This document shows, piece by piece, positions 50,866 through 62,773 of a stretch of DNA of 64,000 nt (position 1 is its first letter; every line of letters begins with the position of its first letter). Below the pieces are notes generated by a model. That model was given only the letters and a program-made list of their open reading frames with translations. It did not search any database and was not told the origin of the DNA. The DNA comes from Membranihabitans marinus. GTDB taxonomy: Bacteria; Bacteroidota; Bacteroidia; Chitinophagales; Saprospiraceae. Both the position numbers and the translations under genes were made by a program. The stretch is taken from assembly GCF_021729155.1 (NCBI RefSeq), contig NZ_JAJQYA010000016.1, forward strand, positions 1 to 64,000, in the 5' to 3' direction.

Positions 50866-51228
50866 CTAACTTCGTTCTTTGTTTTTTAAAAAATGATGTA
50901 AAAAATATCCTGTACTACCTCCAGCTCCAGCAATTAGACCACCAATGATGCCTGTGATGGTGAATATTGTAATTGAATTTGACATAGAAAACAGTGAAGT
51001 CATCCGATCGGTTAATAAATGATGGTTGGTACTACTCAAAAAATAACTGTAACCGGTCCACACTATAAAAATGGAAAAAAAACAAAATAAGAAATCTAAG
51101 ATTACATTTCTCTCAGGCAAAATAAAGGTTATAGCCATGGGGATGAGGACTGTCATCCTCCAGCCAAACCAATAGCAAGCCAACCAAGTACCCAAAGTAA
51201 TTAGCATAAATTTTATGAACTTTTTCAT
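50866..51228 (-). CDS. Small membrane protein of unknown function
   Basis: This 120-residue protein has three hydrophobic segments: about 4-34, 45-66 and 86-110, the last with GIIGGLIAGAGGSTGYFLHHF, a glycine-rich helix. It is not recognised as a member of a named family. Its ATG overlaps the stop codon of the acylase gene by four bases (ATGA), a strong sign of translational coupling. It may assist the acylase in the membrane, or simply share the transcript. A charged C-terminal LKNKERS is cytoplasmic. Short and real by coupling and coding look. Confidence 0.75.
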   Translation of the reverse strand: MKKFIKFMLITLGTWLACYWFGWRMTVLIPMAITFILPERNVILDFLFCFFSIFIVWTGYSYFLSSTNHHLLTDRMTSLFSMSNSITIFTITGIIGGLIAGAGGSTGYFLHHFLKNKERS

Positions 51229-53627
51229 GGTAGTTGAAATTCTATGGTTTGAAGGACACGAGAAGGGGAGATATCGTCATCGATAAGTTCGATATCGTAA
51301 TAGTCATTCGAAAGCCAAGGTTGAATAAAATTGTCGTAGTAAGGTGAACCGGGATTGCCAGATTGACCACCGGGATAGATAACTTTTGCTCTGGTTTTAT
51401 GCGGGCTCAATTCAACAATCATTTTCCAGCTCGGACCATTGGTTTTAGTGATGGCACTAATGGTGTTGCCATTCCCTCCCGTCATAAGCTGTTGATGTGA
51501 GAATGATGGAATTTGCAGTAGGTGTTTGATAGACAATCCTTCTCTTTTTCCCCATTTACGATCAACGTCTTCTATGGTTTCAAATTTTTCTAAAGCCCTT
51601 TGCCAGCTCATTGTGATATTCTCGCTAGCATTTTCTTTTTTGTCTTTAGTGTTGATTATATCGAATATCGCATGATTGGGTGTTGATTGAATGAGTTCTC
51701 TCAGCCTCCATATCTGAGGAGTCGCAGAAATAGGTGATTGGGAGATTTCATCAAAAACTGCTATCGATAATTCATCTAGCCAGATTTCACACAGGGTAGG
51801 TAGACTACTAAAGGCCGAATATTCAAAATTCCAACGAGCAAGCGAGTCCAAAAGTGGATGACTCATTCCAGCAGCTGTGACTTCTCTGACCAAAAGAGGT
51901 ATGCATTCTGCCGCTTTCATATTGTAAACACTATTTTGAATGTCGGCCATTTTTTCAAGATTCAGGGGTTGGTTTTTGAGTAAAAGTTGTTCAATGGTTC
52001 TACCACGATATTGATCAAAATGACCAGAGTATGGAAAGGGATAATCTCTGTCTGTAGGCCATTCATTGGCCGAAATGAGGTAACCTTCTGGAGGATTGAT
52101 TTGTCTGGGAAGGAGGGAGTCTGGGATAAAACCCGACCAATCATTTTCTTTATTACTCCCATCTTGAATAAATCTATCCCTATTGGGATGCTTTATTGGG
52201 AATTTTCCTTGGATGGTAATCCCAATAGAATCGTTGTGGTCAGCGAATATGATATTTTGTCCAGGGATGTAGAAATTTTGAATGGCCTGTTGATAATCAT
52301 TTAGGTTTTGGGCTTTCATCAATTCGTAAAATGTTCTAAAGTCACAGTGTTTGTCGACCATATGGCTTACCCATCTTACAGCTACATTTTGACGGATACC
52401 AGCACTATCGTCGTACAATATCGGTCCCCAATATGTTTCCAAAATTTCTTCAATATGGTTTTCTTCATTCTTAACTTCAATGATTTCTCTTCGGACACTT
52501 GCGGATAAAGTATCATTATCAAGCAGATAGCTATGGGTATCTTTGTTGACCCAATTTATGGAATAGCTATCCAATACATCGATCGAGGTGTTGGTTAGGC
52601 CCCAAGCAACATGTTTATTGAATCCTATAATAATACCAGCCATGCCTGGAATACTTACCCCATGGCTGTGCATTTGCGGTGTTTTTATTTCTACTTCGTA
52701 CCATATACTGGGCAAATTGAGTGGGAGGTGGGGGTCATTGGCCAAAATAGGGAGTCCGTTTTCTGTCAAGTCGGCATTGACAGCCCAATTGTTGCTTCCT
52801 ACATGATGGTCATGGATAGGGATATCAACTGTAGTAGGAGTGGTTGATTGGCTATGTTGAATAAATCGATCTAAATCCGATTGAGGTTTGGGCCAATTTT
52901 GTGATATTATCGGTCTATAGAATTCTGGTGTCAATGGAAAAAGATCATTAAATAGACTGTCGCCAAGTTGATTCAGTGCCTCAGTGTGGCCAAAATCTCT
53001 GAGATTGAGATTTAGGGTGGCGGCAAGCGATATTGAAATCGCTGCTGTTTTTTCGACAGTCCATTCACTAGGTTTGCAGTTGAGTAACTTGTATTCTAGT
53101 GGCCAATCCTTTTTACTCATAGAAGATATCCATTCATTCACCCCTGAGGTGTAGGCATTTAAGAGGATCATCATGTCGGGGTGGTTTTTCCAACTTTCTA
53201 TCTTATTGGTGATGGCCTTTTTAAAATTTATACGCCTTGCAAATATGTCTTTTTCCAGTGCTACTGGACCCAAAATTGCAGATAGCTCCCCAGTAATGGC
53301 CCTTTGGGTGAGGTCCATTTGAAAAAGTCGATTTTTACCGTGCAGGTAGCCTAAGGCAAAGAATGCATCGGCTTCAGTTTGAGTATATATATGGGGTACC
53401 ATACGGTCATCTAGGTAGACGCGAATGTTATTATCGATATTTTTTGAAGGTATCAATAGGTCTGGTAAGGAGGCATCTATGGGGTCAGCCAATGTCCAAA
53501 ATCCGGTAAAAGGATTCAATAGAGGGGCTATCGCTGGTAGACCTTGTTTGGGTAACGGCGTTGATAGTAGGATAAGTAATAATAAGCAAGTAAATAATGC
53601 GAATACGAATTTCCAGCGGTAGGTCAT
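51225..53627 (-). CDS. Penicillin acylase family protein
   Basis: This 800-residue Ntn hydrolase has a signal or anchor segment (about 8-22), the alpha-chain region (ADAFFALGYLHGKNRLFQMDL, ITGELSAILG), and the beta-chain start at Ser278 (HHVGSNNWAV), the nucleophile freed by self-cleavage. GLPILANDPHLPL and MAGIIIGFNKHVAWGLTNTSIDVLD follow. Members cut amide bonds of penicillins, acyl-homoserine lactones or lipid amides. A large conserved domain order and intact nucleophile suggest activity in the periplasm. It is the first gene of a unit with two small membrane proteins; the next ORF overlaps by four bases. Substrate unknown. Confidence 0.94.
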   Translation of the reverse strand: MTYRWKFVFALFTCLLLLILLSTPLPKQGLPAIAPLLNPFTGFWTLADPIDASLPDLLIPSKNIDNNIRVYLDDRMVPHIYTQTEADAFFALGYLHGKNRLFQMDLTQRAITGELSAILGPVALEKDIFARRINFKKAITNKIESWKNHPDMMILLNAYTSGVNEWISSMSKKDWPLEYKLLNCKPSEWTVEKTAAISISLAATLNLNLRDFGHTEALNQLGDSLFNDLFPLTPEFYRPIISQNWPKPQSDLDRFIQHSQSTTPTTVDIPIHDHHVGSNNWAVNADLTENGLPILANDPHLPLNLPSIWYEVEIKTPQMHSHGVSIPGMAGIIIGFNKHVAWGLTNTSIDVLDSYSINWVNKDTHSYLLDNDTLSASVRREIIEVKNEENHIEEILETYWGPILYDDSAGIRQNVAVRWVSHMVDKHCDFRTFYELMKAQNLNDYQQAIQNFYIPGQNIIFADHNDSIGITIQGKFPIKHPNRDRFIQDGSNKENDWSGFIPDSLLPRQINPPEGYLISANEWPTDRDYPFPYSGHFDQYRGRTIEQLLLKNQPLNLEKMADIQNSVYNMKAAECIPLLVREVTAAGMSHPLLDSLARWNFEYSAFSSLPTLCEIWLDELSIAVFDEISQSPISATPQIWRLRELIQSTPNHAIFDIINTKDKKENASENITMSWQRALEKFETIEDVDRKWGKREGLSIKHLLQIPSFSHQQLMTGGNGNTISAITKTNGPSWKMIVELSPHKTRAKVIYPGGQSGNPGSPYYDNFIQPWLSNDYYDIELIDDDISPSRVLQTIEFQLP

Positions 53628-53979: not shown

Positions 53980-55032
53980 CTAATGTTGGACTAGAAGTTT
54001 TTTATTTACATTGTCAATGGATAGGTAGTATAAACCAGATGGAATGGCAGAAAGGTCCATAATTAATTGGTTGGTACTGCCCAAAGAAAAATTAATGGCA
54101 GAAGTTAAATTTTTCCCTGTAGAACTGTAGATTCTAACCTTGTCGGCCTGGATGTTTTTTAAAGACACAGTTGTATATTGTTGTGCAGGATTGGGATATA
54201 CATTAAGTTCATTTGTGTCGATATGAGATGAATTGTCCACTAATACGGTGTTTGAAAAAGTGAAACTGCCATCTACATCGATTTGTTTGATTCGGTAGAA
54301 TACATATTTACTAGCTTCTTTAGGTAACATTTGACTATAGCTCGTTGTAGTATTGGCTTCACCCTTGGCTGAAGTCTCTGCTATGACCTCCCAATGGACA
54401 TTGTCCGTAGAACGCTCTATTTCAAATTTGTCACAATTAATTTCTGAGAAAGTAGACCAATTAACTTCATTTTTGGAGTATTGATTGTTGTATTTTACTG
54501 AAAAATTTTCCCAAACTAATGGCAGTGAACCAGAAGCAGTACAAGATTTAGTTTCCCAATTCAACGATGGTCCTTGGGCGGTAACCTTGGTTGACATAAT
54601 TGCGCAACCCAAAGAAATAGGAGTGGCAGTACTACAGTCGTTGTTGTTGCGATAATCTTGACTGGATAGAGTAGTTCCAGAGCCTCCACTATTTGGCAAA
54701 TCAAAGAAGATTTCAGTGCCGTTGCAATTGATTTTGCCTTGTAATGTGTAAAGATTACTTGGAATATTAACACCTGTGAAAGTGATATCGTAGTCAATCT
54801 CAACTTTGTAATTATATCCATTGGTGCATGGTGCCCCGGGATCGGAAAGTACAATATCTCCAAAGGTTAAGTCTACGATGACTTGGTATCCATTGGAAGA
54901 GGTGAATACTGATCTACATGTTTGACTTTGGGTTATTTTTGGAGTAAATAATAATAGAATAAACACCATATTAAGACTAAATATGGAAAAATAATGCATA
55001 GCATTGACCTTGGGGTTAAATGTGTTTTTCAT
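53980..55032 (-). CDS. T9SS-secreted protein with type A sorting domain
   Basis: This 350-residue protein has a signal peptide (about 1-36, with an alternative start at Met12; it ends TQSQ before T). The middle has six or so cysteines and beta-strands (CRSVFTSSNGYQVIVDLTFGDIVLSD, YKVEIDYDITFTGVNIP), with no named domain. Residues about 175-270 form the usual fibronectin-like linker before T9SS tags (VNWSTFSEINCDKFEIERSTD, YVFYRIKQIDVDGSFTFSN). The C-terminal type A sorting domain runs from about 275 (LNVYPNPAQQYTTVSL, DLSAIPSGLYYLSI). It would cross the outer membrane and be attached to or released from the surface. Role unknown. An inverted repeat lies 17 bases upstream of the ATG. Confidence 0.9.
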   Translation of the reverse strand: MKNTFNPKVNAMHYFSIFSLNMVFILLLFTPKITQSQTCRSVFTSSNGYQVIVDLTFGDIVLSDPGAPCTNGYNYKVEIDYDITFTGVNIPSNLYTLQGKINCNGTEIFFDLPNSGGSGTTLSSQDYRNNNDCSTATPISLGCAIMSTKVTAQGPSLNWETKSCTASGSLPLVWENFSVKYNNQYSKNEVNWSTFSEINCDKFEIERSTDNVHWEVIAETSAKGEANTTTSYSQMLPKEASKYVFYRIKQIDVDGSFTFSNTVLVDNSSHIDTNELNVYPNPAQQYTTVSLKNIQADKVRIYSSTGKNLTSAINFSLGSTNQLIMDLSAIPSGLYYLSIDNVNKKLLVQH

Positions 55033-56052
55033 AATAAGTTAATTAATATTAATTCTGTCTGTAGAATTAATAGGGGGTGTATGTGTAATTTTGGAAATTA
55101 AATATCGCTATGTGGCGATTTTATAATGTGATCTTAGTTTTTAAAGGTTTTTTAATTTTGCTGTCCTAAATTTTATAAGTGAGTAATGATTTTACATTTT
55201 TTCAATTCAATTATTGACTTAGAGTTAGAAATGTAATGCAAATCTTATGTAAAAAGTTTTTGAATTTGAATTTTTTGACAAAAAAAATTGAATTTTAACT
55301 TTTTAATACATCACTGAGTTTTGATTTTTATTGAAAATATCTCCACTGACTAAGTCTTTTGTATTTCTTTATCTTTTGATTGTATCTATGCTCAACAGGC
55401 TGATTTATCCTTGAGACGTTGCAAATGGTAGAATGGGTACGGGTTTTAAACAGTTTTTTTGTAAGTTTTTTGTTTTTTATTAAAAAACAGGATGTTTGGA
55501 TGTGTCGTAAACGTTGTCCAATTGAATGGTGAAATAATTGATTGTTAGTATATTTTGTGATTTTATAATATACCTTGTATGTATTATTGAAATAGATTAT
55601 TGCTTTGCTTTCTCAAATAGGTAATTTTATGTTAATTGAAATCATTGAGTAGATACTTTGAATGATGTGTTGAGTGTTTTCTTACAGAATAAAAACTCTT
55701 TAATCCAATTGTTATTTAATGGTCTTTAATATGGATAATAAAACAGTTCAGGTCTATAGTGGTATTGTGTCACTTTTCGGTGTTAGTCCTTTGTCTTTCT
55801 CGGCGATTTTAGATTTAAGTGAGATTGATGATTGTATATTTTAAAAATGATTTATTGGCGTCCTTGAAACTATGTGAACTTCGGTTAATGTATCGGTAAA
55901 TATGTTTTTGTTGTGTTGTTTGTGATTAGTTTTGAAATATGTGTTTATTTTGAAATGAATATTTGTTAATGTTTGTTTTGTTGTGTTAATCGTTGGCAAA
56001 ATTGCCGATATTCCATTTTTATCAATGAGCTCCAAAAATTTAGTACAGCAAT
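55033..56052. other. 1-kb AT-rich divergent intergenic region
   Basis: The largest gap in the window, with 8-base arms TTAATTCT/AGAATTAA at 55049-55070 close to the T9SS gene. The rest is poor in G+C and has many short poly-T tracts. A 64-codon minus-strand frame (55841-56035) is not believed. No RNA gene was recognised by eye, though a structured RNA cannot be excluded. Confidence 0.5.
55049..55070. promoter_or_regulatory. Inverted repeat upstream of the T9SS cargo gene
   Basis: TTAATTCT-GTCTGT-AGAATTAA: perfect 8-base arms, 17 bases from the start codon. It may be an operator or a leader hairpin. Confidence 0.4.
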
Positions 56053-56895
56053 ATGATGAATGAAAGTATTATTCACAGTGATTATGGGGACTTAAATCAC
56101 CACCTAGCAAAGTGGTCTGAACAATATCAGAATAATTATCCCTTTCCCAATATTTATGTAGATGACTTTTTTGACCCTAGATATTTAAAAAAGGTGTTAG
56201 AAGAATTTCCCGATATTGATGCCCTTCAACAAAAAGTTCAGTATAATAATCCCAATGAATTGAAGCAGGGTACCAAAGGGGAGAGTCAATTTGGTCCCTA
56301 CACTAAAAATTTGGTCCACTATTTGAATTCAGAACCTTTTTTAGTCTTTTTGCAATCAATGACAGGGATAAAAGAAACTCTGATTCCAGATCCTTATTTT
56401 GAAGGAGGTGGTTTTCATGAGATTAAACCTGGAGGATTTTTAAAACTTCATGTTGATTTTCATAAACACAGGAGAATGCAGCTGTGTAGACGTCTCAATT
56501 TGTTAATCTATTTAAATGAGGATTGGGAAGAGGATTTTGGTGGACATTTTGAATTATGGGAAAAAGATATGTCAAAATGCGCTCTGCGTATCTTGCCAAA
56601 ATTTAATCGAATCGCTCTATTTTCTACCAATGGCGATTCATGGCACGGCCATCCAAATCCGTTGAAATGCCCAGAAGGACGATCGAGAAAATCCTTGGCG
56701 CTGTATTATTATACATCGAGTAGACCGGAAAATGAATTGTCATCCGCTCAAGCCAATAAAATCACTACTACCTTTGTGGCAAGGAAAGGAGAAGATTCCA
56801 AAAAAATGAGGATGTACAATAAATTAGTGGAATCGGTAACGGAAATTCTGCCCGATAAACTTCTGTATTTTATTAAGGGGAGGAGGAATAAGTAG
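56053..56895 (+). CDS. 2OG-Fe(II) oxygenase family protein
   Basis: This 280-residue protein has the double-stranded beta-helix of 2-oxoglutarate/Fe(II) oxygenases. The metal triad is His133 and Asp135 in LHVDFH and His198 in SWHGHP, and the 2OG-binding Arg is probably R210 or R212 in EGRSRKSLALYYY. An N-terminal helical domain of about 110 residues precedes it (FPNIYVDDFFDPRYLKKVLEEF). It is like the prolyl-hydroxylase-type 2OG family and could act on a protein, small molecule or glycan. No partner gene is next to it. The start is ATG with a second ATG directly after. Confidence 0.9.
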   Translation: MMNESIIHSDYGDLNHHLAKWSEQYQNNYPFPNIYVDDFFDPRYLKKVLEEFPDIDALQQKVQYNNPNELKQGTKGESQFGPYTKNLVHYLNSEPFLVFLQSMTGIKETLIPDPYFEGGGFHEIKPGGFLKLHVDFHKHRRMQLCRRLNLLIYLNEDWEEDFGGHFELWEKDMSKCALRILPKFNRIALFSTNGDSWHGHPNPLKCPEGRSRKSLALYYYTSSRPENELSSAQANKITTTFVARKGEDSKKMRMYNKLVESVTEILPDKLLYFIKGRRNK

Positions 56896-56955: not shown

Positions 56956-58170
56956 TTATTCCATGATGGAAGATTGTATTTTCACCCCGTTGGTCAAGGT
57001 TCTATGTACAGGGCATTTAGCTGATATTTCCAGTAGTCGCTGACGTTGGTCCTCCGTTAAATCCCCTATAAATTTCAATTTCTTTTCTATAAAATCTATT
57101 TTGTTTTTACTCGAATCTTCTCCAGTTTCCATATGCTTTTTCGAATGAGTCAAGTAAACATATACTTCTTTTAAATCCCATTTCTTTCGATTGGCATAAA
57201 GTTTTAATGTCATCGTCGTACATGCTGCCAATCCCGCAACCAATAATTCATAGGGTGAAGGACCAAAATCATCTCCGCCGACATCAATAGGTTCATCAGC
57301 AATTAAAGCATGTGTTTTGGTCTGAATACTGGTGGTGAATTCGTCATCCATTAAGTTGAGATGTCCAACCAATTGTTCGCCCTCAGTATCCAATATCACA
57401 TTGTCAAGGGAAGGATAGTATTTTTTTACCCACGCACCTATAACATTGCCCACATATACACTATCTTCTTTTGAAGTGAGTAGGTGATCGGCTTGATCGA
57501 GTGAAATAAAGCTTTTGGGGTGATATGCATGATGGTAAAGTTCTCGAGCATGTTCGATTCCAACAATTTTATCGAATGGAGAATGCATGATAAGGATGGG
57601 TTTTTTGAGTTCTTTGACGATGTCCAGTAATGCTATGGTATTAAAACCCTCTACAAATTCTTTGTTGATAACAAATGGCCGACCACCTATTTTGACATCA
57701 GCTTGACCTTGTTGTAATACCTCGTTGATCTTGTGTTCAAAATGGTGCTTGACGTGACCTACATTGGATGGAGCACCTATAGTAGCCACTGCTCTGATGT
57801 ACTTTAGTTGATGACTAGCCACAATAGCTGCCGCTCCTCCTAAGGAATGCCCTATGAGGAGAGTGGGTTTTATATATTTTTGGCTTATATATTGGCAGAC
57901 ATCAACGAGGTCTTGGACATTGGCCGAAAAGTGACTATCTGAAAATTCTCCACCACTTTTCCCTAAGCCAGTAAAGTCAAATCTCACCACCCCAAATCCG
58001 TAATTCGTCAATTCTCTCGTAATATGTCTTACCGGAGCAAAGGATCCACTACAGGTAAAGCAGTGGGCAAAGACGGCCAAATAGCTGGGCTTTTGGTTGG
58101 CAGGTAGTTCTATATAGGCAGATAGTTGATGTCCACTCGAGTTGGGAATACTTATGCGTTCACTTTTCAT
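56956..58170 (-). CDS. Fused alpha/beta hydrolase and OsmC-family peroxidase
   Basis: This 404-residue protein joins two enzymes. Residues about 1-250 are an alpha/beta hydrolase with the nucleophile Ser109 in LIGHSLGGAAA, an early FAHCFTCSGSF oxyanion region, and a late His in DQADHLL. Residues about 260-404 are OsmC/Ohr-like with the peroxidatic cysteines Cys317 (GLAACTTMTL) and Cys386 (ISAKCPVHRTL), which reduce organic hydroperoxides. The fusion is known from several bacteria (bifunctional alpha/beta hydrolase/OsmC). The start overlaps the stop of the msrA-like gene by 11 bases, so the two are translationally coupled; a combined peroxide and methionine repair role fits. Confidence 0.93.
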   Translation of the reverse strand: MKSERISIPNSSGHQLSAYIELPANQKPSYLAVFAHCFTCSGSFAPVRHITRELTNYGFGVVRFDFTGLGKSGGEFSDSHFSANVQDLVDVCQYISQKYIKPTLLIGHSLGGAAAIVASHQLKYIRAVATIGAPSNVGHVKHHFEHKINEVLQQGQADVKIGGRPFVINKEFVEGFNTIALLDIVKELKKPILIMHSPFDKIVGIEHARELYHHAYHPKSFISLDQADHLLTSKEDSVYVGNVIGAWVKKYYPSLDNVILDTEGEQLVGHLNLMDDEFTTSIQTKTHALIADEPIDVGGDDFGPSPYELLVAGLAACTTMTLKLYANRKKWDLKEVYVYLTHSKKHMETGEDSSKNKIDFIEKKLKFIGDLTEDQRQRLLEISAKCPVHRTLTNGVKIQSSIME

Positions 58171-58672
58171 GTCTAATATTTTTTTTAAATTTTTGTTGAA
58201 TGAGTAGCAATTTGGGTTCTATATAGGTTTTGCAAAAAGGTTTTTCTGGTTGTTTGGTGTAGTAATTAATATAGGCGGGTTTATTGGGTTTGAAAGATTG
58301 AAAGGGCAAAATTTTGGTAATTAGTTTTCCTTTAAATTCCTTTTGGAATTCTGACAAAAGAGCTATTGCTTCTTCTTTGGATTTTTCGCTGAAATAATAA
58401 GCTGCAGATCTATATTTATTTCGTAAACTGTGTTGAGAAGTAGCGCTATGGGTGTAAAGATGTACGGCTAAGAGTGTTTTTAAATCGATGATGTCTGGTT
58501 GGAAATTCACCAAAACAGCCTCGGAGAAATCATCATAAGGCCGAATTGAATTGATCCAGCCTTGAGACACTTTGTCTACTCCAATAAGTGATTGAAAAAC
58601 CGCTTCTGTGCACCAGTGGCAGCCACCTCCAAATCCTATGACATCCATTTGATTTGATATTTTGTTATACAT
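58160..58672 (-). CDS. msrA: MsrA-type peptide methionine sulfoxide reductase, variant motif
   Basis: This 170-residue protein reduces methionine-S-sulfoxide. The catalytic block is GGCHWCTEAVF (Cys18, with Glu23) where most MsrAs have GCFWG/C; His19 instead of Phe is unusual. A later SATSQHSLRNKYRSAAYYFSE block matches the HDPTTLNRQGGDVGTQYRS region only partly. A Cys in FCKTYIEPKLLLIQQKF lies at the usual resolving position. Start is ATG at 58672; Met9 is an alternative. It overlaps the fused hydrolase-OsmC gene. It is likely a divergent MsrA subtype with different substrate or redox partner; the second, canonical copy lies at 60748. Confidence 0.87.
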   Translation of the reverse strand: MYNKISNQMDVIGFGGGCHWCTEAVFQSLIGVDKVSQGWINSIRPYDDFSEAVLVNFQPDIIDLKTLLAVHLYTHSATSQHSLRNKYRSAAYYFSEKSKEEAIALLSEFQKEFKGKLITKILPFQSFKPNKPAYINYYTKQPEKPFCKTYIEPKLLLIQQKFKKNIRHEK

Positions 58673-58827
58673 TTATTAATTCCCAAAACTATTTGAAGCT
58701 TCTAATATTTTTTGTCTAAGCAACTTTATTTTATTCTGTGACAACGATCTTGTAAATAACAATTGGGTTATTGGAATTTTCTATATTATTCTAATCTAAC
58801 TGTTGTATTGATTAATCATCCTCAAAT

Positions 58828-60411
58828 CTATGAACTACAAGATAGCATGGAGCAACCAATTTTGTCTCTGGCCCAATCCGGGCGCTTGACAAACCATTGG
58901 GCGGCTTCTGGTTGTTCGTCATAGGGCTTTTTCAAAATTTCAGCTAGGCTTTTAATTAATTCATAGTCTCCTTTATCAGCATCGTCTATTGCCAACTGAG
59001 CCATATAGTTTCTCAATACATATTTGGGATTTACACTATTCATTTTTTTAGATCTGGCAGCTGGTGATTGGTTTTCTGAATCCAAGCGGTTGCGGTATTT
59101 GTCTAGCCAATCTAACCACGCCACATTGTGTTCTTCTTTTAATAATAAAGGTTCATAAAATGCTTCAGTAAGATATGCCGGTATTTCTTCTAGTTTTTCA
59201 GAATAGTTGTTTTCATCGAATTGGGCCAGATTTCTAAAAAATATCGTCATGTCGGTTTCATGCAGTTGGAGTAGTTCTTCCAGTTCTACAATTAAATCTT
59301 CATCTCCTGACAGGGATTGATTGAAGCCTAATTTTTCAGCCATCATATTGCTGTGTTTTATTTTGTAGTCCGCTTGTGCCTGCTCTAAAATGGCTTCCAG
59401 TGGTTGGCTTTCTTCAATTAATAAAAACAGAGAATTGGCCAGTTGATATAGATTCCATAGGGCAATATAACCTTGATGACCAAATCGATATCTCCGTTGG
59501 TGTCTGTCTGTGGTATTAGGGGTCCAAAGGTGGTCGTATCCATCTAGCCAGCCATAAGGACCGTAGTCTATGGTGAGTCCATGGATGGACATGTTGTCGG
59601 TATTCATTACTCCGTGAACAAATCCTACCCGATTCCAGTGAATGACCATATCGATAGTAGTGTTGACTACATCTTGAAAAAATTGTAGGTAGCTGATTTT
59701 GGGATCTAGGTGGGAAAGATGAGGAAAATATTCATTGATCGTGTAATCGGTTAAAATTTTTAAATTTTTGAAATCTCGTCTGGCCGCAAATATTTGAAAG
59801 TTTCCAAATCGAATAAATGATGGGGCTGCTCGGCATACAATAGCCCCTTTTTCATAGGCTGGGTGACCATCGTACATAATATCTCTCAATACTCGATCCC
59901 CTGTCAAAACCAGGGACAATGATCGAGTGGTCGGTACGCCGAGATAGTGCATTGCCTCACTGCATAAATGCTCTCTAATGGATGATCTGAGTACGGCCAA
60001 TCCATCAGCTTGACGTGAATACGGTGTCGGTCCCGCACCCTTTAGTTGTAATTGCCAGCGCTGGTCATGGTGTTCTATTTCACCCAAATTTATGGCTCTA
60101 CCATCGCCCAATTGGCCAGCCCAGTTGCCAAATTGATGACCTCCGTAACACATGGCATAGGGTTGGGTATTGACCATGACTTGCTTCCCCGAGAAAATAT
60201 TTAGAAAATCCTGAGAATAGAGTTGATCTTTGGTAATGCCCATTTCTTCGGCTAAGTCTAGGCTAGCGTGGATGAGGCTGGGATTCGAAGGTTTTTTTGG
60301 TTCGACAAAGGAATAGCAGGCATTGTAAACTTGTCTAGGGGTATTGGTTGTGTCGCTATCTCCCGGCAGGGATTTTGTGAAATCATTTTTTAATTGAAAT
60401 GAAATTTTCAT
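58828..60411 (-). CDS. selO: SelO-type protein adenylyltransferase (YdiU/UPF0061)
   Basis: This 527-residue pseudokinase-fold enzyme transfers AMP to proteins in redox control. The N-terminal block includes YAMCYGGHQFGNWAGQLGDGRAI and LQLKGAGPTPYSRQADGLAVLRSSIREHL; VHGVMNTDNMSIHG holds the catalytic Asn/Asp region; YGPYGWLDGYDH follows. The C-terminus GCSMLSCSS ends with the CxS-type tail, where some homologues have selenocysteine; here it is Cys, and no TGA is involved. It lies between two msrA genes, which fits a stress-response role. The start is ATG; a 336-bp gap lies upstream. Confidence 0.95.
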   Translation of the reverse strand: MKISFQLKNDFTKSLPGDSDTTNTPRQVYNACYSFVEPKKPSNPSLIHASLDLAEEMGITKDQLYSQDFLNIFSGKQVMVNTQPYAMCYGGHQFGNWAGQLGDGRAINLGEIEHHDQRWQLQLKGAGPTPYSRQADGLAVLRSSIREHLCSEAMHYLGVPTTRSLSLVLTGDRVLRDIMYDGHPAYEKGAIVCRAAPSFIRFGNFQIFAARRDFKNLKILTDYTINEYFPHLSHLDPKISYLQFFQDVVNTTIDMVIHWNRVGFVHGVMNTDNMSIHGLTIDYGPYGWLDGYDHLWTPNTTDRHQRRYRFGHQGYIALWNLYQLANSLFLLIEESQPLEAILEQAQADYKIKHSNMMAEKLGFNQSLSGDEDLIVELEELLQLHETDMTIFFRNLAQFDENNYSEKLEEIPAYLTEAFYEPLLLKEEHNVAWLDWLDKYRNRLDSENQSPAARSKKMNSVNPKYVLRNYMAQLAIDDADKGDYELIKSLAEILKKPYDEQPEAAQWFVKRPDWARDKIGCSMLSCSS

Positions 60412-60747
60412 ATTTTTTATTTCAGGTATTTATTAAACCTAACTAATTTACTTCGATTTAGTTGGCGAGGAAGGACTTTTTTCCTCTTTCGCATTAATTC
60501 AGATCCACCTATATATGTAGGCTGTAGCGGTGATGATGTGTGGAGCAAAATACCGGGTAGGCAATAATCTTTGAATAGTTAATACGTATAAAATGTAAAC
60601 TATTATTGTTTAATCGATCACCATCGATCTAGATTTTTACTCTATGTCAATGATTGAAATTGAAGTATGAATAGCATCAACTGCCATATTCAAAATAGCA
60701 GTTGATGCTTATTTATTTTGGCTAAATCCAATGTTGGGACAATCTAA
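60412..60747. other. 336-bp intergenic region
   Basis: Contains the dispersed word AAAATACCGGGTAGG (60547-60561, also at 50265-50279) and a strong hairpin at 60673-60709. No gene seen. Confidence 0.5.
60673..60709. terminator. Hairpin downstream of msrA
   Basis: Perfect 12-base arms AGCATCAACTGC/GCAGTTGATGCT with a 13-base loop, 38 bases after the stop of the canonical msrA. T-rich on the plus side only, so it may act weakly for msrA. Confidence 0.6.
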
Positions 60748-61296
60748 TTAAGACTGAATCTCCTCTTCTTTGAGGAAAGACTTGTATTTTTCTTTTAATT
60801 TATTGACTTTGGGATTGATTACTACTTGACAGTATCGAGCAGATCCATTGTTGTTGAAGTAGTCGTAGTGATATTGCTCAGCGGGATAAAATACTTCCAA
60901 GGGTTGTAATTCTGTGACAATAGGATCCGGATAAGTCGGTTGAACTTCATCAATCACCGACAACGCAGTTTTGTGTTGACTGGGATTGTGAAATAAGATA
61001 ATGGATCGATATTGTGTTCCCACATCTCCACCTTGTCTGTTGAGGGTGGTTGGGTCGTGACTGGTCATGAAGATGGTTAGTAAATCACGGTACGATATAG
61101 TATCGGCATCAAAGTGTACTTGTATGACTTCTGCGTGGCCTGTAAGTCCAGAACATACTTCTTTGTAGGTTGGATTCGCAGTTTTTCCTGCGGCATAACC
61201 GGGTTCGATTTTTTGAACTCCTTTAAGGCGTTGAATCACAGCCTCAACACACCAAAAACAGCCGCCTCCAAAAGTAGCAATTTGAATATTCTCCAT
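60748..61296 (-). CDS. msrA: Peptide methionine sulfoxide reductase MsrA
   Basis: This 182-residue canonical MsrA has the catalytic motif GGGCFWCVEAV (Cys13) and GYAAGKTANPTYKEVCSGLTGHAEV, then SHDPTTLNRQGGDVGTQYRS, and EQYHYDYFNNNGSARYCQVVINPKV with a resolving Cys. It repairs oxidised methionine with thioredoxin. It is cytoplasmic, as it has no signal peptide. No msrB is attached or nearby. It is one of two MsrA genes in this stretch, with SelO between them. Start is ATG. Confidence 0.96.
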   Translation of the reverse strand: MENIQIATFGGGCFWCVEAVIQRLKGVQKIEPGYAAGKTANPTYKEVCSGLTGHAEVIQVHFDADTISYRDLLTIFMTSHDPTTLNRQGGDVGTQYRSIILFHNPSQHKTALSVIDEVQPTYPDPIVTELQPLEVFYPAEQYHYDYFNNNGSARYCQVVINPKVNKLKEKYKSFLKEEEIQS

Positions 61297-61468
61297 GATT
61301 GTAATTTTATTGATACTCCATTAATACAATAGTGTATCTCATTTTGTTTTATAGATTTGAATGTATTTACATGAAATGTAGTCAATCCTTGGATTTTAAC
61401 ATGATAAGATCGATACTCATTTGCCAAAACTACGATGGTATGATGACCTTAGTAATTATCAAAGATTG

Positions 61469-62230
61469 TTATTTAGTAAAAAACCATTGGTTGTCACTAG
61501 AAAGTTCACGATTGTAGTGGTAGTCTTCCCAATCAAATCCCTTGAGGTCTTCTGGTTCTGTCAATTTGTTTTTTATAATATATCTGGCCATTAAACCTCT
61601 GGCTTTTTTTGCATTGAAGGATACGAATTGCCATTTTTCATTGCGCCATTCTCTAAATTGGATTTCGAGTACAGGGCTAGTTATATCCTTTAGTTGTACC
61701 GCTTTGCTATATTCTTGAGAAGCGAGATTGATCACTACTGGTTTGTCTTGTTTTGCCACCGCATCATTAATGGCTTCAGTTATGGTAGAATCCCAAAAAG
61801 CATAGAGATTTTCTTTTCGTCCAACTTTGAGCTTACTGCCCATTTCCAACCGATAAGGTTGAATTTGAGTACTGGGTTTGAGCAATCCATATAAGCCAGA
61901 AAGTATAAACAGGTGGTCTTCGGCAAAGAGTAAGTCATCGGTGTTGAAATCTTGAGCTTGAAGACCGAGAAAAACATCTCCATTGAAGGTGTGGATGGCT
62001 GCACTTCCTATCTCGGCTGCAAAATCGGTATTAAATGATTGGAAGCGTTGGTGGTTTAGGACGGTGAGTTTGTCTGAAATACTCATAAGAGCCTTTATCT
62101 TTGGTTTGGACAAAGTTTTGAGTTTTCGTGCAATTTGACTTGTTTTTTCTTCAAATAATGGTCGAGTAAGCGGTAAGGCGGACTCGGGGTTTTCATTTAA
62201 GGATTTCGAGGGAGATAATAAAATGATCAT
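61469..62230 (-). CDS. yaaA: Peroxide stress protein YaaA (UPF0246)
   Basis: This 253-residue protein limits iron available for Fenton chemistry in E. coli under peroxide stress. Markers are ILLSPSKSLNE at the start, IARKLKTLSKPKIKALMSISDKL, FNGDVFLGLQAQDF, YGLLKPSTQIQPYRLEMGSKL, and the end DLKGFDWEDYHYNRELSS. It contains the helix-hairpin-helix-like DNA-binding region of the family. It follows the stress genes on the same strand, with 172 bp between its stop and the msrA start. The two may still be separate transcripts. Confidence 0.95.
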   Translation of the reverse strand: MIILLSPSKSLNENPESALPLTRPLFEEKTSQIARKLKTLSKPKIKALMSISDKLTVLNHQRFQSFNTDFAAEIGSAAIHTFNGDVFLGLQAQDFNTDDLLFAEDHLFILSGLYGLLKPSTQIQPYRLEMGSKLKVGRKENLYAFWDSTITEAINDAVAKQDKPVVINLASQEYSKAVQLKDITSPVLEIQFREWRNEKWQFVSFNAKKARGLMARYIIKNKLTEPEDLKGFDWEDYHYNRELSSDNQWFFTK

Positions 62231-62308: not shown

Positions 62309-62773
62309 TTAAAAAGCGGCATCGTCTTGTTTGGGAACGCTTTTGTTTTCTACTCTGTGAACTTTACCCTTGATATTGAGAATTATGGTCTCGTCAGTGG
62401 TGGTCACCAATGTGACAGTTTTGGCGAAGGATCCAACGCGCTCAGTGTCGTATCTCACTTTAACAACATTTTTTTCACCAGGCATAATGGGTTCTTTTGG
62501 ATATTCAGGTACAGTACAGCCACAAGATCCTTTGGCACTTTTTATAGCTACCGGTGCATCAGAAGTATTTTCAAATGCAAACGACCTATAAGGGTCAGAA
62601 CCTTTTTCAATTTCACCATAGTCAATAGTCAATTGATCAAATTTTAAAGCTGATTTTGCTTTAGGACTGTCAAAGGTTGTGTTTTTATCGGCATCACTTA
62701 ATGTGGCATTTTGCGCATTAACATAAACAGCACAACACAAAAGGATGGATAATGAAAGGACAATATGCTTCAT
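62309..62773 (-). CDS. DUF1573 domain protein (secreted)
   Basis: This 154-residue protein has a signal peptide (1-20, ending YVNA before Q). The mature part is one Ig-like DUF1573 module (about 42-145): FDQLTIDYGEIEKGSDPYRSF, TSDAPVAIKSAKGSCGCTVPEYPKEPI with the GSCGCT motif, GEKNVVKVRYDT and TTDETIILNIKGKV. The Cys pair may coordinate metal or make a disulphide. Bacteroidota have many; some sit beside cytochromes or secretion genes. It is a single gene here. Function is unknown. Confidence 0.92.
   Translation of the reverse strand: MKHIVLSLSILLCCAVYVNAQNATLSDADKNTTFDSPKAKSALKFDQLTIDYGEIEKGSDPYRSFAFENTSDAPVAIKSAKGSCGCTVPEYPKEPIMPGEKNVVKVRYDTERVGSFAKTVTLVTTTDETIILNIKGKVHRVENKSVPKQDDAAF

Follow-up and report, generated by a model that had tools for sequence, protein, structure and literature searches.

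A probable redox-repair gene module of Bacteroidota that unites SelO, two types of MsrA, and an esterase-OsmC fusion

Do five neighboring oxidative-stress genes of Membranihabitans marinus form one redox-repair system around the pseudokinase SelO, and do all five belong to it? The window analyzed here is the whole stretch of 64,000 nucleotides at positions 1 to 64,000 of contig NZ_JAJQYA010000016.1 (assembly GCF_021729155.1). It contains five intact open reading frames on the minus strand, at the positions originally given and each above the Pfam curated cutoff for its family: an esterase (alpha/beta hydrolase)-OsmC fusion of the EstO type (56956..58170), a variant of methionine sulfoxide reductase A (MsrA), here called MsrAv (58160..58672), SelO, also known as YdiU (58828..60411), a canonical MsrA (60748..61296), and YaaA (61469..62230). 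The original prediction joined all five into a redox island that a lack of co-occurrence in relatives would refute. In a survey of gene neighborhoods, MsrA, SelO, MsrAv, and the hydrolase-OsmC fusion were found to co-occur in relatives; thus, the island stands for these four genes and has to be given up for YaaA. We consider it likely that a redox-repair module recurring across marine Bacteroidota is present in the window as one copy, that this module is built on MsrA (in many cases together with MsrB), SelO, MsrAv, and the esterase-OsmC fusion, and that YaaA is a bystander.

Recurrence was assessed by scanning an alignment of MsrAv against 84,980 species genomes. This retrieved 568 confirmed stretches, from which the best 80 were kept as loci; these are the closest matches to the window MsrAv, and 59 of them belong to Flavobacteriia. 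MsrA or a second MsrA type occurred at 50/80 of the MsrAv loci, followed by MsrB (n = 44), SelO (n = 30), esterase-OsmC (n = 27), aldo/keto reductase (n = 22), and glutaredoxin-type genes (n = 22), one representative of which is a glutaredoxin-GNAT fusion by Pfam. Redoxins were of the AhpC type at 14 loci and of a second type at 3. Every matched gene of a core family shares the strand of MsrAv. The genes are usually arranged as MsrB-MsrA-(redoxin)-(glutaredoxin-GNAT)-SelO-(aldo/keto reductase, MsrA2, or DUF427)-MsrAv-esterase/OsmC, and this order recurs in both Flavobacteriia and Saprospiria; a Saprospiria locus (L094), for example, reads MsrB-MsrA-redoxin-glutaredoxin-SelO-MsrAv-EstO. Carriers of the full module include members of Polaribacter, Flavivirga, and Algibacter. 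Median gaps were -4 bases for MsrB-MsrA, -10 for aldo/keto reductase-MsrAv, 11 for MsrAv-EstO, and 15 for glutaredoxin-SelO. Gaps near or below zero are the pattern expected of an operon. Redoxin, glutaredoxin-GNAT, aldo/keto reductase, second MsrA, and EgtB-like genes are lineage-dependent additions to the module.

The same association is seen among closer relatives. In a set of 149 related genomes, SelO is present in 48 and MsrAv in 13, with the window genome counted; the MsrAv copies of the other 12 carriers are 47 to 56% identical to that of the window. SelO was present in 9/13 MsrAv carriers versus 39/136 noncarriers (Fisher p = 0.005). In five of the nine double carriers (the window genome, G068, G064, G054, and G006), the two genes lie <2 kb apart, for which random placement gives a binomial p of ~2e-12, with the reservation that all five belong to one family and are not fully independent. 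MsrAv is directly downstream of SelO in G068 and upstream of it in G054, an extra MsrA lies between the two in G064, and an aldo/keto reductase and a redoxin separate them in G006. Because these orders differ, the data point to repeated association, albeit within one taxonomic family, rather than to one frozen arrangement. One further relative (G045, locus L043; G045:C7:36744-38305) carries an MsrAv with two internal stops, a SelO split in two frames, and a broken esterase-OsmC, reflecting either decay or poor assembly.

The canonical MsrA of the window also has counterparts. In a 297-genome sample of the phylum, at least 11/41 genomes with SelO, the window genome included, carry a canonical MsrA that precedes SelO by ≤1.5 kb and shares its strand; apart from the window genome, the ten found come from a single family (f25). 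Within the genus, MsrA sits at three different loci, and two of these, in the window and in the congener G001, include MsrAv. The G001 locus, found elsewhere in that genome, reads MsrA-redoxin-glutaredoxin/GNAT-DUF427-MsrAv. In the congener G002, MsrA overlaps MsrB and lies beside an aspartate-kinase-like gene. The window genome has a similar aspartate-kinase-like neighbor beside MsrB alone, its likeness to the G002 locus being judged by the first residues of the neighbors rather than by formal comparison.

It could be argued that shared descent alone explains these findings, with Flavobacteriaceae inheriting one chromosome order and no functional module being involved. Indeed, flanking genes of the c3 (metallophosphoesterase), c5, and HD/PycTM families are about as frequent around MsrAv (22 to 27 loci each), and among the 80 loci they are confined to Flavobacteriia. 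However, the Saprospiria copies contain the redox genes in altered order and spacing without those flanks, the sole exception being an HD match at a SelO locus that lacks the module (L182). The copies in L094 and G006 thus have the same gene set without the surroundings typical of Flavobacteriia. Moreover, MsrA changes locus within one genus yet again accompanies MsrAv. Recurrence across classes without common flanks contradicts an explanation by shared descent only, which we regard as improbable.

Several observations nevertheless weigh against a coherent module. Since the 80 loci were picked by likeness to the window MsrAv and most come from Flavobacteriia, shared descent inflates the counts. 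MsrAv occurs without SelO at 50/80 loci, and none of the partners was found at any MsrAv locus of Cytophagia or Sphingobacteriia within this set. Conversely, 32/40 SelO loci of Saprospirales have no Msr gene near SelO. Together with the partner-free loci, these indicate that the genes are often, but not always, associated. Within the window, tight coupling is limited to MsrAv and the fusion, which overlap by 11 bases (58160-58170), as originally reported. The gaps between SelO and MsrAv (155 bases) and between MsrA and SelO (336 bases) are wider and weaken the case for one transcript; YaaA and MsrA are 172 bases apart. A scan of the run for a single shared promoter gave no excess of sigma-70 sites over shuffled sequence, and a scan for promoters of the Bacteroidota type found isolated TAnnTTTG boxes only, at 61432 (upstream of MsrA) and 58691 (just before MsrAv).

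An origin of the complete island by transfer from Flavobacteriia was considered and is not supported for SelO: in the tree, the SelO proteins of Flavobacteriia cluster together with support and apart from the window copy, which falls in the unresolved Saprospiria backbone. The esterase-OsmC of the window likewise falls outside the group formed by Flavobacteriia, on a branch that is long and unresolved. These two positions do not demonstrate a recent transfer of the island from Flavobacteriia. The MsrAv tree is poorly resolved, and a sign test along it, asking whether SelO and the fusion were gained together, had few supported pairs.

What might set MsrAv apart from the MsrA with which it so often occurs? 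The window protein has the PMSR fold and the motif GGCHWCTEA and exceeds the Pfam PMSR cutoff (75.2 bits versus 23.7), as does the canonical MsrA (203 bits). In contrast, only the latter reaches the MsrA equivalog TIGR00401 (185.6 bits versus a cutoff of 108.1); the window MsrAv scores 61.8 bits and eight other members score 58 to 86 bits, placing all nine tested below the cutoff. MsrAv shares with MsrA (PF01625, TIGR00401) the fold, the catalytic cysteine, and a resolving cysteine. Across a 54-row alignment, Cys18, Glu51, and Tyr87, which correspond to Escherichia coli Cys51, Glu94, and Tyr134, are invariant, as is the resolving Cys147. Unlike in MsrA, Phe52 of the GCFW motif is replaced by His19 in all 54 rows, the position of Tyr82 is Trp39 in nearly all rows shown, and the loop preceding the Glu94 equivalent is missing. 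In MsrA, contact with the substrate has been assigned to Phe52/Trp53 and Glu94/Tyr82/Tyr134 (PMC8417374 and PMC6210582). The AlphaFold model of MsrAv (predicted local distance difference test score [pLDDT], 94) predicts the MsrA fold with confidence. Among PDB entries, it most resembles Helicobacter MsrA/B, PilB, and further MsrA structures (E ~1e-11). Of the 45 entries matched at E≤0.001, each represents MsrA or MsrA/B except for 7c13, whose title names cGrx1 but whose chain A is listed as MsrA.

Kept catalytic residues in an altered pocket suggest that MsrAv may be a functional reductase whose substrate has changed. A more conservative explanation, compatible with a real module, is that MsrAv arose as a simple duplicate of MsrA and still acts on peptide Met-S-sulfoxide, as MsrA usually does, and that the locus is no more than an enlarged msr operon, with SelO co-expressed as a passenger. 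The shared fold, the invariant catalytic residues, and the lack of SelO at most MsrAv loci agree with this explanation, whereas the remodeled pocket, the uniformly low equivalog scores, and the frequent presence of MsrA or a second MsrA beside MsrAv, which points to divided labor, do not. We consider it a serious possibility, if not the outcome we would expect.

SelO is an AMPylase conserved from bacteria to humans, and to our knowledge, few of its substrates have been identified. In the E. coli protein, Cys272 pairs with a cysteine of the C-terminal tail. The window SelO scores 422 bits against Pfam SelO and exceeds the cutoff of NF000658, the broader model for the YdiU subfamily (555 bits versus 431), but not that of the E. 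coli-type equivalog NF040880 (390 bits versus 900). Its motifs K124, H266-N273, and D282/G284 (D282-Y-G) are identical in 70/70 Bacteroidota copies; the corresponding pseudokinase motifs have been described as xxLK, HGVMNTDN, and DYG/DFG (PMC12599244). The position of Cys272 is proline in 68/70 of these copies, while the tail GCSMLSCSS, with two cysteines, is identical in 65/70. A redox switch, if there is any, would therefore need the two tail cysteines. An earlier SelO study describes a tail of the C-x(3-10)-C type (PMC3281104). As a separate observation, the fusion of glutaredoxin with a GNAT domain (Acetyltransf_CG; e.g., L120:418-945) recurs in the module beside SelO or a redoxin.

The esterase-OsmC protein of the window (Pfam OsmC, 65.9 bits; Hydrolase_4, 59.8 bits) groups with other island copies, and a fully supported branch separates this clade from generic relatives. 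Ser109, Asp200, and His229 of the esterase triad and the OsmC cysteines Cys317 and Cys386 do not vary among the 27 rows aligned from the islands. The fusion matches the EstO family in the order of its domains, in its Ser-Asp-His triad, and in having two OsmC cysteines (PMC5113044). According to the same study, the only EstO protein tested, from R. marinus, is an esterase with no detectable peroxidase activity, so peroxide removal by the fusion is not to be assumed. This weakens the original premise that OsmC removes organic peroxides. An EgtB-like gene (DinB_2 plus FGE-sulfatase) was found at 5/80 loci (L130:9731-10873, L123, L146, L114, and L116) and directly follows esterase-OsmC with no gap at three of these. 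Such a neighbor suggests that there may be a link to a low-molecular-weight thiol.

In the mechanism that we infer, which extends to every biochemical activity and to the regulatory role of SelO, MsrA would reduce protein Met-S-sulfoxide, as expected from its family. MsrAv, with its catalytic cysteine, acid glutamate, one tyrosine, resolving cysteine, and remodeled pocket, would reduce a different S-sulfoxide. The esterase-OsmC protein would hydrolyze oxidized (thio)esters, and SelO, by AMPylating a protein in that same pathway of thiol chemistry, would tune the supply of reductant. The most specific form of this proposal is that MsrAv is a separate subfamily acting on a nonpeptidyl or unusual S-sulfoxide and, at the same time, that its operon is a repair unit under the control of SelO, which would AMPylate the co-encoded MsrA, redoxin, glutaredoxin-GNAT, or esterase-OsmC. 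We put this combination forward tentatively and think it rather unlikely to hold in full.

Part of this picture has precedent. Oxidative-stress genes, including msrB, msrA, and gpx, are over-represented near SelO/ydiU according to two neighborhood studies (Dudkiewicz et al. 2012, PMC3281104; ProFaNA, PMC10364804), with msrB reaching significance and msrA showing a trend only in the first. Methionine sulfoxide reductases near SelO are what these data share with the window module. Unlike the present survey, those studies were statistical, covering a 22-kb span across microbes, and in the portions available, neither describes an MsrAv subfamily or a fixed gene order. OsmC was not found in the full text of PMC3281104. 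The EstO study (PMC5113044) reports a distinct genomic context for each family member and, in the portions available, describes no link to SelO or Msr. Known msrAB operons and fusions (PilB and Helicobacter MsrA/B) couple MsrA and MsrB in one transcript or protein, as in the module, to which SelO, MsrAv, the esterase-OsmC fusion, and variable redoxins are added. Our search of the open-access literature for a described SelO-Msr-OsmC system yielded only the two SelO neighborhood papers. Thus, the general SelO-msr association and the esterase-OsmC family were already known, while the conserved module, its link to the fusion, and the MsrAv subfamily are apparently undescribed, as far as these searches go. 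The conserved putative operon provides a short list of candidate SelO substrates or partners, namely, MsrA, MsrAv, redoxin, glutaredoxin-GNAT, and esterase-OsmC. MsrAv itself looks like a large subfamily, judging by the number of confirmed stretches, and the changes in its pocket hint at a substrate that may go unnoticed when the protein is annotated simply as MsrA.

Finally, YaaA (Pfam H2O2_YaaD, 277 bits; NF002542, 314.6 bits versus 278) adjoins the module without being a member. In a five-gene redox regulon that included YaaA, as originally proposed, its position directly upstream of MsrA in the window would be meaningful, and MsrA indeed directly follows YaaA in two genomes (G093:C19 and G114:C123), both from another family of the order. 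However, YaaA occurs at 0/80 MsrAv loci. Of 20 YaaA loci sampled from relatives in Saprospirales, 18 lack an Msr gene, and SelO, MsrAv, and the fusion are absent from all 20. Its stable partners are instead DUF1573 and penicillin amidase. YaaA is therefore a bystander with a separate history, and we deem the five-gene regulon very improbable.

The surroundings of YaaA indicate what this history may have been. DUF1573 lies within ~2 kb of YaaA at 10 of the 20 loci; in the window, it is the upstream neighbor (62309..62773; minus strand; Pfam DUF1573, 100.7 bits), a pairing also seen in both congeners, G001 and G002. The window penicillin amidase (51225..53627; minus strand; 584.7 bits by Pfam) lies on the other side of the redox genes. 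In G001 (L193), DUF1573, YaaA, and penicillin amidase follow one another, the amidase lying directly downstream of YaaA at a distance of 155 bases, and YaaA directly adjoins the amidase in G019 and G072 as well. Most simply read, the redox genes of the window thus interrupt an older YaaA-amidase neighborhood in which YaaA is the ancestral resident. Six genes now separate YaaA from the amidase: MsrA, SelO, MsrAv, EstO, and, at 53980-56895, genes for a 2-oxoglutarate-Fe(II) oxygenase and a secreted protein with a sorting tail for the type IX secretion system. The latter two, which lie between the amidase and esterase-OsmC, are absent at the corresponding G001 site.

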